Assembly (NCBI GenBank): GCA_020724265.1
Contig: DYHH01000020.1
Coordinates: 1-64,000 of the forward strand
Direction of reading: 5' to 3'
Length of the DNA stretch: 64,000 bases
Source of the DNA: Melioribacter roseus
GTDB lineage: Bacteria > Bacteroidota > Ignavibacteria > Ignavibacteriales > Melioribacteraceae
In this document: piece after piece, positions 52,451 to 61,797 of the stretch
Layout: every line of letters begins with the position of its first letter
Position numbering within the stretch: position 1 is the stretch's first letter
Notes under the pieces: model-generated
The model's input: only the letters and a program-made list of their open reading frames with translations
What the model was told of the DNA's origin: nothing
Databases searched by the model: none
Position numbers and translations under genes: made by a program

Positions 52451-52978
52451 TTATTTTTTTGATTTTCCTTTTTGAGGAGCCAAGATGGTAAACATCGCTC
52501 TCCCCTCAAATTTTATTTCTTGTTCAATTTTTGCAACATCTTCAAGTTGACTGATAAATTGTTTTAATAGATCTTCACCCTGCTCTTTATAAGCAAGTTC
52601 TCTTCCTTTAAAAATAACTGATACTTTTACTTTGTTGTTATCACCAAGAAATTTTTCTGCATGTCTTACCTTAAAGTTAATATCATGTGTATCAGTATTA
52701 GGATGAAGTCTAATTTCTTTTAGAACTGTAGTCTGAGCTTTCTTCTTAGCTAATTTTTCTTTTTTCTGCTGTTCGTAAATAAATTTACCATAGTCAATAA
52801 TTTTGCAAACCGGCGGTTTAGCTTGAGGAGCAATTTCAACCAAATCAAGCCCTCTCGCTTCAGCTTCTTTTAATGCTTCTTGAGTAGATAAAATTCCGAG
52901 CTGATTTCCTTCAGGATCAATGACCCTAATTTGTGGTACCCTTATATCCCGGTTTACTCTATAATTTGTTTGGGCGAT
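52451..52978 (-). CDS. infC: Translation initiation factor IF-3 with non-canonical ATC start
   Basis: Binds 30S subunits, keeps them apart from 50S and checks the start codon. The full 175-residue protein begins I-A-Q-T-N-Y-R-V-N and includes the N-terminal domain (RVNRDIRVPQIRVI), a linker, and the C-terminal domain (IDYGKF, RPHPNTDTHD-type region). The only ATG/GTG/TTG in frame is a TTG deep inside (residue 46), which would delete the N-terminal domain. Upstream the frame contains TAA five codons before an ATC (52976-52978), which has AGAGGTG four bases ahead. So initiation at ATC is very likely (ATA two codons into that gap is worse). E. coli infC uses ATT, allowing IF-3 to regulate itself. 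Confidence 0.93.
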   Translation of the reverse strand: MAQTNYRVNRDIRVPQIRVIDPEGNQLGILSTQEALKEAEARGLDLVEIAPQAKPPVCKIIDYGKFIYEQQKKEKLAKKKAQTTVLKEIRLHPNTDTHDINFKVRHAEKFLGDNNKVKVSVIFKGRELAYKEQGEDLLKQFISQLEDVAKIEQEIKFEGRAMFTILAPQKGKSKK

Positions 52979-55469: not shown

Positions 55470-58400
55470 CTAAATGCTTTCGAGTTCTGAATTTGGACTT
55501 CTGATTTCTGTATATTCCTCCCAACTTTTTACTTGAAGAAAATCATCGTCATATTTTTCAAGAGCTTCCGCAAGTCTCATTGCTAACTGTCTATTTGTTA
55601 TCAATGGAATTTTATAATCAACTGCCAATCTTCGTACCATGTAATCATTTGTAAGTTCATCTTCTTGAAAACTTTTCGGAATGTTTATAACAAGATCAAC
55701 GCCTTTTGATTTTATTAAATCAATAACATTAGGTTTCTTCTTCTGTGAAGGCCAGTTTACTTTTTCGACTGTTATATTATTGTTTATCATAAATTTTGCC
55801 GTACCGGGTGTAGCATAAAATTTAATTCCAAGTTTCGTAAGTATTCTTGAAGTTTCCAATAACTCTGCTTTTGATTCAATTGTACCTGAAGAAATGAGTA
55901 CCGACTTAATAGGAAATTTGTATCCTACTGAGATTAAAGCTTTCAAAAATGCCTCGTTAAAATCATCACCGAAACATGCGACTTCCCCGGTTGAAGCCAT
56001 TTCAACTCCCGTAGTCGGGTCAGCTCCTTCAAGCCTAGTAAAAGAAAATTCCGGTGCTTTAACAGCAACATAATCATATTCAAATAATGATGTCTCGCTA
56101 GTATCAAACGGTTTATCAAGAATTATTTTCACAGCTGTTTCGATAAAATTATCTTTAATTGTTTTTGATACAAAAGGAAAACTTCGGGATGCTCGCAGAT
56201 TACATTCAATCACTTTTACGTTATTTTGTTTTGCAATAAATTGAATATTGAATGGACCGTTAATAGACAAAGCTTCCGCAATTTTTTCTGATGTCTTTTT
56301 AATCTGTCTTATAGTTTCCAAGTAAGTTCTTTGCGGAGGCAGTACTAATGTTGCATCACCCGAATGAACTCCGGCATTTTCAACATGTTCCGAAATTGCA
56401 TACTTAACAATTTTTCCATTGCTTGCTACACCATCAAATTCAAGTTCTTTCGCATTTTCTAAAAACTTGCTAATAACAGTCGGGAATTCTTTTGATAATT
56501 CAACAGCTTTTTGAAGAAATGTAATTAATTCTTGATCATTGGATGCGACGCCCATAGCGGCTCCGCTTAAAACGTAAGACGGTCGAACAAGTACCGGATA
56601 ACCAATTGAATTTGCAAACCTAAGTGCTTCTTCAACAGTTGATAGGACACTCCATTCCGGTTGCTCGATATTTAATTTGTCAAGTAAGGAAGAAAATTTA
56701 CTTCTGTTTTCTGCAAGATCAATTTTGTCCGGAGATGTACCTAAAATCGTTATTCCCCGTTTATTTAATGGCACTGCCAAATTATTTGGAACTTGTCCCC
56801 CCATAGATATAATTACACCGCGTGCATTTAATTTTCGGTAGATTTCTTCAACAGTTTCGAGAGTAAGTTCTTCAAAAAAGAGAAAATCAAACTCATCGTA
56901 ATCCGTACTAACTGTCTCCGGATTACAATTAATCATAACTGATTTTTCACCATACTTTCTTAAGAATCTACCGGCATTGACACAACACCAATCAAATTCA
57001 ACCGAACTTCCAATTCGATAAGGTCCGGAACCAAGAATTATAATAGGATTTAGTTTATCATCTTTACTTAGATCATCATGAGAGGCATTGTAAGTCAAGT
57101 ACAAATAATTAGTCTTAGCCGGATACTCAGCGGCTAAAGTATCAATCTGCAAAGCAGATGGATGAATATTTTCATAAACCCTTATCTGTCTAATATCCTC
57201 TTCGTTTTTATTAATTGCTTTTGCAATTTGAAGGTCGGAGAAACCTAACTTTTTGGCATGAAGCAGTGAATCTTTAGTAACACGCTGGTCAATTTCAAGT
57301 AATCTTTTGTGATTAACTATATTTTTAATCTTATGAAGAAACCACTTATTAATATTAGTCAATTCATGAATTTGTTCGACGGAGTAACCGTTTTCAAACG
57401 CTTGGGCAATAACAAATAAACGTTCTTCACCCGGCTCTTTTAAGAATAGTTCAATATCATCAAATTGAAATTTTTTATCATTGCAAACCACACCATTAGC
57501 ACCAATATCCAACATACGAACGGCTTTCTGCAGTGCCTCTTCAAATTTTCTTCCGATAGCCATAACTTCGCCGACCGATTTCATCGAAGAACCGATACGT
57601 TTTGATACATTTCGGAATTTTTTCAAATCCCATCTTGGAATTTTAATTACACAGTAATCAAGTGCAGGTTCAAAGAAAGCGGGTGTAGTTTTGGTTACGT
57701 TATTTTTTAACTCATACAATCCATAACCGATTGCCAATTTAGCAGCAACAAACGCCAATGGATAACCGGTTGCTTTAGATGCAAGTGCCGAACTACGCGA
57801 TAATCTTGCATTAACTTCAATTACCCGATAATCATCCGAATTTTTATCAAGTGCGTATTGAATGTTGCATTCACCAATAATTCCGAAATGACGAATTACT
57901 TTAATGGCTATTTCACGTAACTTATGATATTCATGGTTGGTTAAGGTTTGACTTGGTGCAACGACAATGCTTTCACCCGTATGAATTCCCATCGGGTCAA
58001 AATTTTCCATATTACATACAGTAATACAATTATCATATTTATCTCTAACAACTTCGTATTCAATTTCTTTCCAACCTTCGAGATATTCTTCAACTAATAT
58101 TTGAGAAGTATAAGAGAGGGCTTTGGATGCTAATTTTTCCACTTCATTTTTGTTTCTACATACACCTGAACCTAAACCGCCTAAAGCAAATGCAATTCTT
58201 ATTAATACAGGAAAACCTAACTCCTCACTGGTTTTTATTGCATCTTGAATCGAGGTCACAGCTTTACTTTTTGCTACTTTTACATTTATCGAATCAAGAT
58301 TTTTTTTGAATTTTTCGCGGTCTTCAGTATCAATTACAGTTTTGATCGGACTGCCGAGGATTTTGACATTATATTTATTAAGAATACCTTTTTCATGAAG

Positions 58401-58697
58401 TTCCATTCCGCAGTTAAGTGCAGTTTGTCCGCCGAAGCTGATTAAAATTGCATCGGGTTTTTCTTTTTGAATAATTTTTGTAACAAACTCAACATTTACA
58501 GGAAGTAAATAAACTTTGTCTGCTAAGTATTCTGAAGTTTGAATAGTTGCAATATTCGGATTAATTAATACCGTGTAAATACCCTCTTCTTTAAGGGCTT
58601 TAATAGCTTGACTTCCGGAATAATCGAACTCTCCGGCTTCACCGATTTTCAGTGCGGAACTTCCGAGTATTAATATTTTTTTTGGTTTGTTTGTCAT
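55470..58697 (-). CDS. carB: Carbamoyl-phosphate synthase large subunit
   Basis: 1075 residues of two homologous ATP-grasp halves: residues 1-400 (carboxyphosphate site; PNIATIQTS, GSPIKTVIDTEDR), oligomerisation domain, 550-935 (carbamate site; SGPYRIGSSVEFDW, INCNPETVSTDYD), and a C-terminal allosteric domain (from about 936, GVDLVINIPKS). All normal. Feeds pyrimidine and arginine synthesis. Start ATG, 87 bases after the carA stop. No strong Shine-Dalgarno. Confidence 0.97.
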   Translation of the reverse strand: MTNKPKKILILGSSALKIGEAGEFDYSGSQAIKALKEEGIYTVLINPNIATIQTSEYLADKVYLLPVNVEFVTKIIQKEKPDAILISFGGQTALNCGMELHEKGILNKYNVKILGSPIKTVIDTEDREKFKKNLDSINVKVAKSKAVTSIQDAIKTSEELGFPVLIRIAFALGGLGSGVCRNKNEVEKLASKALSYTSQILVEEYLEGWKEIEYEVVRDKYDNCITVCNMENFDPMGIHTGESIVVAPSQTLTNHEYHKLREIAIKVIRHFGIIGECNIQYALDKNSDDYRVIEVNARLSRSSALASKATGYPLAFVAAKLAIGYGLYELKNNVTKTTPAFFEPALDYCVIKIPRWDLKKFRNVSKRIGSSMKSVGEVMAIGRKFEEALQKAVRMLDIGANGVVCNDKKFQFDDIELFLKEPGEERLFVIAQAFENGYSVEQIHELTNINKWFLHKIKNIVNHKRLLEIDQRVTKDSLLHAKKLGFSDLQIAKAINKNEEDIRQIRVYENIHPSALQIDTLAAEYPAKTNYLYLTYNASHDDLSKDDKLNPIIILGSGPYRIGSSVEFDWCCVNAGRFLRKYGEKSVMINCNPETVSTDYDEFDFLFFEELTLETVEEIYRKLNARGVIISMGGQVPNNLAVPLNKRGITILGTSPDKIDLAENRSKFSSLLDKLNIEQPEWSVLSTVEEALRFANSIGYPVLVRPSYVLSGAAMGVASNDQELITFLQKAVELSKEFPTVISKFLENAKELEFDGVASNGKIVKYAISEHVENAGVHSGDATLVLPPQRTYLETIRQIKKTSEKIAEALSINGPFNIQFIAKQNNVKVIECNLRASRSFPFVSKTIKDNFIETAVKIILDKPFDTSETSLFEYDYVAVKAPEFSFTRLEGADPTTGVEMASTGEVACFGDDFNEAFLKALISVGYKFPIKSVLISSGTIESKAELLETSRILTKLGIKFYATPGTAKFMINNNITVEKVNWPSQKKKPNVIDLIKSKGVDLVINIPKSFQEDELTNDYMVRRLAVDYKIPLITNRQLAMRLAEALEKYDDDFLQVKSWEEYTEIRSPNSELESI

Positions 58698-58740
58698 TTA
58701 TTTTTCTTTGCTCTTTTGCGCATTTGCAGTAGTTAATGAA

Positions 58741-58775
58741 AAACAACCGTAGAGACGCCAAGACACTTAGTTGAT
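58741..58775. repeat. Dispersed repeat core in the carA-carB gap
   Basis: The 87-base gap contains, on the minus strand, CTAAGTGTCTTGGCGTC and CTACGGTTGTTTTTC. These match the general form (cttNgtgtct...ggtt) of a similar segment near 63.97 kb and part of the terminator near 5.74 kb. Such words occur widely between genes of this bacterial group (memory). No frame. Confidence 0.35.
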
Positions 58776-58784
58776 TTTTTATAC

Positions 58785-59837
58785 TTATTTTATCTTACTC
58801 AAGAACTCATCAAAAATAAATTCGGTATCCACCGGACCTGGTGCAGCTTCCGGATGAAATTGTACCGACATTATCGGTAATTCTTTATGAATAATTCCTT
58901 CATTGGTTTTGTCATTTAGGTTTTCAAACCAAACATCCCATTCTTTTGGTAATGTCTGAGTATCAACTGCAAAGCCGTGATTTTGTGAAGTTACAAAACA
59001 CCGATTGTTTTTTTTATTAATAACAGGTTGATTCTGACTTCGATGACCATATTTCATTTTATAAGTTTTTGCTCCGGCTGCAAGTGAAACAATTTGATGC
59101 CCCATACAAATACCAAGTATAGGTTTTCCAAGAGTAATAATCTCTTTTGCTGTGTTGACAAGATCGTGATACATTTCCGGGTTACCCGGACCATTGCTAA
59201 ACAATACCGCATCAAAATCTGTTTGTTTATAATCATAATTCCATGGAACGCGTTTTACTTTATATCCTCTGCTAACAATATTTCTAACAATATTCTCTTT
59301 ACAACCGCAATCATAAAGAAGAATAGTTTTACCTTTTCCGTATTCCACAACATCTTTAGTTGCAACTTTTTCAAATAAATTAATTGTATCCGGGTTAAAG
59401 AAATCAATGGGATCGGTATCTAATTCAATTTTACCGAGCATTGTACCATTTTCTCGAATAAGCTTAGTTAGTTCTCTTGTATCAACTTCACACAAACCGG
59501 GTATGTTATATTTTTCCATCCATCTAGATAATGGATTGAAAGCATTCCAGTGGCTGAAATCATTAGAATAATCTGAGATTATCAATCCGCTTATTTTAAT
59601 TCCTATTGATTCGAAAAAAGTGGAATTAATTTCAATTTCTTTTTCAATTCCGTAATTACCAATTAATGGGAAAGTTAAAACTAAGATTTGTCCGGTGTAA
59701 GAAGGGTCTGTAAGAGTTTCGGGGTAACCAACCATACCGGTATTGAAAACGATCTCCCCTGCTGCCGATTTAGCCGCCCCAAATAATTTTCCTTGAATGG
59801 AAGTTCCGTTTTCAAAAACAAGTTTGGCTGTGTTTAT
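58785..59837 (-). CDS. carA: Carbamoyl-phosphate synthase small subunit with probable ATA start
   Basis: Glutamine amidotransferase subunit supplying ammonia to CarB. The catalytic Cys lies in GICMGHQIVSL, the His-Glu pair in QFHPEAAPGP. The frame's first ATG (59735) would begin at M-V-G-Y-P, losing the conserved N-terminus. The upstream sequence, in frame, reads I-N-T-A-K-L-V-F-E-N-G-T-S-I-Q-G...GEIVFNTG, exactly the usual CarA start, and a TGA blocks the frame four codons further up. No ATG, GTG or TTG lies in that stretch. ATA at 59835-59837 has GGAG seven bases ahead and gives 350 residues. A promoter is 30 bases upstream. A sequencing error is the main alternative. Confidence 0.9.
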   Translation of the reverse strand: MNTAKLVFENGTSIQGKLFGAAKSAAGEIVFNTGMVGYPETLTDPSYTGQILVLTFPLIGNYGIEKEIEINSTFFESIGIKISGLIISDYSNDFSHWNAFNPLSRWMEKYNIPGLCEVDTRELTKLIRENGTMLGKIELDTDPIDFFNPDTINLFEKVATKDVVEYGKGKTILLYDCGCKENIVRNIVSRGYKVKRVPWNYDYKQTDFDAVLFSNGPGNPEMYHDLVNTAKEIITLGKPILGICMGHQIVSLAAGAKTYKMKYGHRSQNQPVINKKNNRCFVTSQNHGFAVDTQTLPKEWDVWFENLNDKTNEGIIHKELPIMSVQFHPEAAPGPVDTEFIFDEFLSKIK

Positions 59838-59864
59838 TGAATTACTCCGTCAAAATTGTTGGCG

Positions 59865-59872
59865 CAAAGATA
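59865..59872 (-). promoter_or_regulatory. Candidate -7 box for carA
   Basis: Minus-strand TATCTTTG fits TAnnTTTG exactly. No TTG lies 20 bases upstream (only TTTC). Transcription would start near 59858, leaving a leader of about 20 bases that contains the GGAG site before the ATA codon. This supports the ATA start because no longer leader remains. Confidence 0.4.
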
Positions 59873-59955
59873 GGTAAATTAAGAATAAAGTGGAAAGAAG
59901 AAATTATTTATATGAAAAGAAAAATTGCAACTAAAACAGCCGTTAATTCCATCAA

Positions 59956-61797
59956 TTAATACACTGCTACGTTAGCACTTAATTCGTTACTCTCAATTGG
60001 AAGTAATTTTAACAACTTCATTTGTTCTTTCATCGTTTTAAATTCTTCTTCCAGTACAAGTAGATCATGCATAATTGTTCTATTTATTTTCAATAAATCC
60101 GAAGAGAATAAATTTTTATAGTACTCTATTCCATCAGATATATTTTTTTGAAATGTGTCAAAATATTTTAATTTACCGATAGAAGAATTATCTTCAACTT
60201 CTTTGATTTCCTCCTTCAAATAGTTGAGATAAAGTTTCATTTCTTTAATAAACATATTAGGGCGATCTTTTCTGCTAATGAGATTTAATCTGCCATATAT
60301 GTGGTCTATCATTTCTTTCAACGACACAATTTTAGAAAAATAAGCTAAGTTTGGGCCCGGACAAATTAACACACCATCACCGTCAGTTTTTTCCGCTGCA
60401 TCATTCATTTTAAGAACCGAAGTTGCTAATCCAACACAAAGACATGCTTTATCAATAATCTTTTTGTACTGTGAATCAAAATTAGTTTTGTCTAGATTTT
60501 GAGACTTAAGTTGATCAATCTTTTTTGTTTGATAAGTTATTGATGCAGTGCAAATTGCTTTTTCGCTAAACTCGGTGTTTGATTGTAAATATTTTTTGGG
60601 GCAAGGACTTCCGGGTTTTCCGTTAAGAGCATTTTCTAATTTTTCGATATCTTTTGAATTTCCTCTTATGCTGTTAAAAGGAACTCCAAGCGGAGATATT
60701 CTGCTTAAATAAAGATCCTCTTCGGTTGCATTAGTTAATAGCGATAAAGTATTTTGATCGACATTTGTTGCTTCCGGAACAAGAAGAAAAGGTGTTCCCC
60801 ACCCAACGGAATCAACTTGATAATATTCGAGAAGAAATTTTTGCTCGTCAAAAGTACCAACGCCGCCTTGTGCGGTAATTTTAATATCGCGCGGTAGATC
60901 ATTTGCTAATCTATTCTTTTTCTTAAGTGCATCTATATAAATTTCATGGGTTGTATTAATCAACAATTCACGGTTGGTTTTAAATTCTTCGAGAATAGGT
61001 CCCAGCAAATAGCCATCTGTTGCGAAAGCATGTCCGCCGCAATTAAGTCCCGATTCAATCCTGTATTCTGAGATCCATATACCCTTTTTTGCCAGGTATT
61101 TACCTTGAATTATTGCCGAACGATAATCACTTACTTTTAGAATTATTTTCTTATTCAGTTCGCCATTTTCATTTGGGAAAAAGTCTTCAAATTCTTCGAA
61201 GTAACTATAAAGCCTTGGGTTCATACCGGCGGATAAAACAATGGAAGATTTCAATTTACTGTTGGCAAAGCCACGCAACGAAGCATGTGCATCATTATAA
61301 ATTACCGGTAACTGTAAATCTCTATTGTAATTAGGTTTATCAACTTTGGTCATAATGTTGACGTCAATATTCCCGGGCTTAACCTTAAGAAGAACCCACT
61401 CCTTTATTACCTCCAAGGCGTTATTCTCTAATGCTTCATTGTACTTAATTTTCAGATCGGAATCATCGGGCAACAATTCAATATATTTTGCAAAATCACT
61501 ATGTTCTTTCCCATATGAATTTTTAAGTTTCTCAAAGTTATCTTGTACAATATCATCAACTAAATTAAGATAAGCAGTAATTCGTTTGGCACGGTAATCT
61601 TCTTCTTTTGTTGATATCGGTTCGTATTCAACATCAAAGTTTTTGCAATGGTGTTTTCTCATTTTTTCAATAAGATCATCATCAACAATTGAAATGACTG
61701 AATCAATACCAAAATGAGCAACTTTAATCGGTGTATCTATTGAGAAACCGAGACCCATTACAGGTATATGAAATTTATGTATTGGCTTGTTAATCAT
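59956..61797 (-). CDS. Uncharacterised 613-residue protein, possibly a TIM-barrel flavoprotein
   Basis: I do not recognise a named family. It begins HKFHIPVMGLGFSIDTPIKVAHFGIDSVISIVDD, similar to the entry of nitronate monooxygenase and other FMN barrels, and later has ITAQGGVGTFDEQKFLLEYYQVDSVGWGTPFLLVPE, which matches the barrel's Gly-rich phosphate-binding region. Residues about 230-285 add SEYRIESGLNCGGHAFATDG. The C-terminal third holds Cys residues (GSPCPKKY, KAICTAS, KACLCVGL, LICPGP) that could bind an iron-sulfur cluster, then helices. No signal peptide. Start ATG, divergent from crcB with an operator-like sequence between. Confidence 0.75.
   Translation of the reverse strand: MINKPIHKFHIPVMGLGFSIDTPIKVAHFGIDSVISIVDDDLIEKMRKHHCKNFDVEYEPISTKEEDYRAKRITAYLNLVDDIVQDNFEKLKNSYGKEHSDFAKYIELLPDDSDLKIKYNEALENNALEVIKEWVLLKVKPGNIDVNIMTKVDKPNYNRDLQLPVIYNDAHASLRGFANSKLKSSIVLSAGMNPRLYSYFEEFEDFFPNENGELNKKIILKVSDYRSAIIQGKYLAKKGIWISEYRIESGLNCGGHAFATDGYLLGPILEEFKTNRELLINTTHEIYIDALKKKNRLANDLPRDIKITAQGGVGTFDEQKFLLEYYQVDSVGWGTPFLLVPEATNVDQNTLSLLTNATEEDLYLSRISPLGVPFNSIRGNSKDIEKLENALNGKPGSPCPKKYLQSNTEFSEKAICTASITYQTKKIDQLKSQNLDKTNFDSQYKKIIDKACLCVGLATSVLKMNDAAEKTDGDGVLICPGPNLAYFSKIVSLKEMIDHIYGRLNLISRKDRPNMFIKEMKLYLNYLKEEIKEVEDNSSIGKLKYFDTFQKNISDGIEYYKNLFSSDLLKINRTIMHDLLVLEEEFKTMKEQMKLLKLLPIESNELSANVAVY

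Follow-up and report, generated by a model that had tools for sequence, protein, structure and literature searches.

The start region of carA

The window, a stretch of 64,000 nucleotides of Melioribacter roseus DNA that was analysed as a whole (its genome is G000 below), carries on its minus strand the two genes for carbamoyl-phosphate synthetase. The features on which the argument turns are these:

58785..59837, minus strand: carA, glutamine-hydrolysing carbamoyl-phosphate synthetase small subunit, 350 residues counted from the ATA plus a stop codon (TIGR01368, 436 bits; PF00988)
59835..59837, minus strand: putative start codon ATA of carA, proposed from sequence and conservation
59845..59848, minus strand: GGAG Shine-Dalgarno (SD) sequence, with a 7-nt spacer to the ATA; GGAGTA is invariant in three species
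59850..59852, minus strand: in-frame TGA stop 5' of the carA start region, read directly
59865..59872, minus strand: TATCTTTG, a promoter-like box of the Bacteroidota -7 type (TAnnTTTG), a match to consensus that is invariant in the leader alignment of three species
59733..59735, minus strand: ATG codon 35 of carA, the first in-frame ATG and the mechanical start of the open reading frame; internal Met of the motif NTGMVGY
55470..58697, minus strand: carB (large subunit), with an ATG start, 87 nt 3' of carA and on the same strand

An earlier note on this DNA, made from the letters alone, had placed the start of carA at the ATA, and all of its coordinates for the region, the TAnnTTTG box included, agree with a direct reading of the minus strand. 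Its claim that neither ATG, GTG nor TTG lies between the in-frame TGA and the first ATG is likewise borne out, and there is no in-frame CTG from the TGA (59852-59850) to codon 35 either. Read from the ATA, the protein exceeds the cut-off of NCBIfam TIGR01368 (307 bits) and aligns over residues 4-350 with positions 1-360 of the 361 in the profile, while Pfam PF00988 also aligns from its first position. PF00988 has no other match in G000, a genome that is 99.98% complete, and carA is present as a single copy.

The TATCTTTG box, separated from the ATA (59837-59835) by 27 nt in G000, is a predicted promoter element, its activity being suggested by the consensus match and by conservation. An Rfam scan of 59500-60200 returned no riboswitch or known leader RNA, and the folding energy of the leader is no better than that of shuffled sequences (z 0.36). 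Farther 5', on the same strand as carA, a 613-residue protein is encoded at 59956-61797.

Conservation of the ATA and of the codons that follow it

The genus comprises four genomes, three of which carry carA: G000, G001 and G002, the latter two with CarA proteins 90% and 82% identical to that of G000. In the fourth, which is 80% complete, carA was not found. All three carA genes have GGAG-N7-ATA at the identical codon, and in all three a canonical start is absent from the upstream stop as far as codon 18 (in G002, where a TTG encodes an internal Leu) or codon 35. When the 150 bases upstream were aligned, TATCTTTG, GGAGTA and the ATA were invariant across the three leaders, G002 being otherwise strongly diverged, and between the SD sequence and codon 13 the ATA is in every species the sole codon within one base of ATG. 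carA thus shares with the genes that start at AUA, AUU or AUC both the absence of ATG, GTG and TTG ahead of the conserved N-terminus and a conserved rare codon at a good distance from an SD sequence. This conservation rests on few independent changes, in three carA-bearing species of one genus, and an A as third base of a single Ile codon is by itself not improbable.

An unusual start codon in a single genome may be the product of one miscalled base, whether a true ATG at the position of the ATA or a frameshift that masks a normal start, and for one genome one base would be enough. The comparison of carA starts among close relatives, which the earlier note had proposed, disposes of this reading almost entirely: the ATA stands at this codon in two further species as well, and sequencing error in G000 is excluded for that reason. 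The same ATA and the same lack of a canonical start recur in three separate assemblies whose proteins are 82-90% identical, one of them (G002) a single contig; the finding that the note had named as fatal to its own proposal, an ATG at 59835-59837 or a frameshift, is excluded by their agreement. A genuine ATA start is thereby supported by three species that agree in the codon, in its distance from the GGAG and in having no canonical alternative.

It is also conceivable that translation begins at ATG codon 35 (59735) and that the conserved stretch ahead of it lies outside the protein in this genus. In G000 and G001 no canonical start comes before that codon in the frame, and it is the one that a gene caller restricted to ATG, GTG and TTG would choose. 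However, differences between G000 and G002 within codons 1-34 fall on third positions in 19 of 28 cases (p = 2e-4), with 6 of 7 between G000 and G001 and 15 of 23 between G001 and G002; by this measure codons 1-34 evolve as translated codons do, and they align with the beginning of the CarA profiles. Residue 35, moreover, is Met in 76 of the 77 CarA proteins compared, including that of E. coli and those of species with unambiguous upstream starts, and it is therefore a conserved internal residue and no start. The ATG has no SD sequence at a usable distance, the nearest GGAG lying ∼18 nt upstream, and a start there would deprive CarA of the beginning of its small-chain domain. Initiation at this codon is very unlikely.

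About as improbable is a start upstream or out of frame that reaches the carA frame by frameshifting or by termination and reinitiation, as might be imagined for a short TTG-ACG-GAG-TAA frame overlapping the SD sequence. In G000 and G001 a TTG outside the carA frame is indeed followed, three codons on, by a TAA overlapping the SD region, but this short frame is missing from G002, whose leader reads CCTAAACGGAGTACCCCG, and as a route to carA it was rejected as not conserved. The leader is also short, and no slippery sequence is evident in it by eye.

Weak carA starts among relatives, and a second unusual start at infC

The start regions of carA were read in 63 genomes of the family with a match, in 16 members of the order and in others, and a tree was built from 74 distinct carA sequences, mostly from family and order members, with start labels assigned by rule. 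An ATG is within reach in 41 of these sequences, only TTG or GTG in 30, and neither in three, which are those of the ATA genus; elsewhere in the family a canonical start is always within reach. The three ATA sequences form a monophyletic clade (support 100/99) nested within a carA clade of 31 rows, which otherwise holds 24 rows with TTG or GTG only and four with ATG, two of the latter also carrying TTG at the usual place. Support at the deeper forks is moderate (80-90). In many genera of the larger clade no ATG is in reach, and carA has a conserved weak start, TTG or GTG, with the LxLxD core ending ∼17-18 codons after it (L120, L125-L127, L129, L133, L136, L138, L139, L176-L178, L180, L181, L186, L188, L189, L191, L194 and others).

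Given that 24 of the 31 clade members use only TTG or GTG, weak initiation of carA is probably ancestral in this clade. In the sister clade the TTG is 7-8 codons more distant from the conserved core than the ATA, and changing one base of the ancestral start would therefore not simply yield the ATA. At carB the related loci mostly have ATG, with GTG in some and no case of TTG only, so that weak initiation characterises carA here. The pattern in the tree suggests that weak carA initiation has been selected for. A search of the literature on carA start codons and on start codons in Ignavibacterium found nothing usable.

The window holds a second start outside ATG, GTG and TTG, in the gene for initiation factor IF3:

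52976..52978, minus strand: putative start codon ATC of infC, in the context GAGAGGTGTTTC-ATC

infC is the textbook case of such a start. Its first in-frame TTG is codon 46 of the protein, and ATC or ATT occupies the start position in nearly all loci examined across the order. About 50 genes of this contig allowed a comparison with G002, and the base rate of hidden upstream starts derives from this contig alone. In only two of them, infC and carA, does conserved coding sequence reach well ahead of the first canonical start; the others that were flagged are apparent overlaps with neighbours, judged by coordinates, or antisense frames.

Each genome of the genus contains the anticodon-arm pattern of the initiator tRNA, GGGCTNATAACCC, a single time, and its anticodon is CAU. 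This being the ordinary anticodon, AUA must pair with a mismatch at the third base, as a near-cognate. An altered initiator tRNA that reads AUA was considered and rejected, on a pattern whose only matches have CAU and which would overlook an initiator with different letters in the stem.

Proposed translation from AUA and its possible purpose

There is reason to think, with a probability of about 0.88 for the explanation as a whole, that carA is translated from AUA by SD-guided initiation that is inefficient and sensitive to IF3, so that little CarA is made per mRNA. The sequence itself, its conservation, the coding constraint, the ordinary anticodon and the phylogenetic pattern are observed, and from them we infer the use of AUA, the low yield, the sensitivity to IF3 and the purpose. 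If the TATCTTTG box sets the start of transcription, the leader would be as short as ∼20 nt and would carry the GGAG, which would position the 30S subunit such that fMet-tRNA(CAU) could pair with AUA across the third-position mismatch. Initiation of this kind should be inefficient and should respond to IF3, which disfavours near-cognate codons, and less CarA would follow from each message. The AUA would in this way extend the TTG and GTG habit of the surrounding carA clade.

What such a start might be for is a separate matter. It probably serves to match CarA to CarB or to limit the synthesis of carbamoyl phosphate: carA, which comes first in the carAB pair, may be kept at a level suited to carB, or IF3, and through it translational capacity, may govern how much carbamoyl phosphate is supplied. 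It is plausible, as the earlier note had ventured, that a weak AUA start restrains pyrimidine and arginine synthesis, and this would fit the TTG and GTG starts of related carA genes. A more specific proposal, rather doubtful at present, is that CarA synthesis is itself under IF3 control, a high ratio of IF3 to ribosomes repressing carA together with infC and precursor supply following translational capacity. Were that true, an IF3 regulon in these bacteria would include a metabolic gene, carA, with the supply of pyrimidine and arginine precursors tracking their capacity for translation.

Against any such purpose stands the view that AUA is used but has no regulatory meaning, having arisen by drift where a good SD sequence makes the strength of the start codon nearly neutral; it competes with the purpose only and not with the use of AUA. 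The confinement of ATA to one genus speaks for it, as does the frequency of canonical weak starts (TTG, GTG) in bacteria generally. However, the ATA has been kept in three species although a single transition would turn it into ATG and although other third positions have changed, and weak starts are concentrated in the carA clade but not at the adjoining carB. Drift is the less likely account, and a role in limiting CarA is preferred.

Several known systems resemble the one proposed here. The E. coli carA, an orthologue that likewise has a weak start and lies directly 5' of carB, begins with TTG, as the earlier note correctly stated; TTG, unlike AUA, belongs to the normal start set, and UUG is a far more efficient start than AUA. 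infC starts with ATT in E. coli, ATC in Streptomyces, AUA in S. aureus and ATC in this window, and like carA it would be initiated at a near-cognate codon that differs from AUG in the third base and is disfavoured by IF3; there, however, the near-cognate start serves autoregulation, whereas CarA has no role in translation. In S. aureus, AUA starts are used in vivo at infC, ccpN and citZ, and reporters with the AUA of ccpN and citZ yield ∼10% of AUG, that of ccpN up to 30% in rich medium (Nat Commun 2026, PMC13009471). As proposed for carA, those of ccpN and citZ are SD-driven AUA starts of a metabolic gene or of a gene that regulates one, and that of ccpN is conserved among relatives, but they have an extended SD sequence where carA has GGAG only, and their use was demonstrated by Ribo-Ret and reporters where that of carA is deduced from sequence (PMC13009471). 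The sigR gene of Streptomyces has a GTC start that is repressed by IF3, the weak start keeping SigR below its partner RsrA (mBio 2017, PMC5472188). Here too, of two genes in one unit, the first is held below the second by a rare start outside ATG, GTG and TTG, as carA may be, although sigR concerns GTC and a genetically tested sigma/antisigma pair, and carA concerns AUA and enzyme subunits.

A conserved non-canonical start codon is thus of a kind already known, and the new case is AUA on a core metabolic gene, carA. Few genes with starts outside ATG, GTG and TTG have been documented, and few AUA starts among them; gene callers restricted to the three canonical codons miss such starts and would here take the first 34 residues off CarA. 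That a whole genus has AUA on an enzyme gene, where the surrounding carA clade favours TTG and GTG, also makes testable the question of why distant bacteria, E. coli among them, initiate carA weakly.

A minor observation concerns the gap between carA and carB (58698-58784), which contains a degenerate inverted element, CTTGGCGTCTCTACGGTTGTTTTTC..., of which the window has one copy only when 3 mismatches are allowed. At the corresponding place G002 has CTTAGCGTCATTGCGTCTCTGCGGTTGTTTTT...CCGCAAAGTCGCTAAG.
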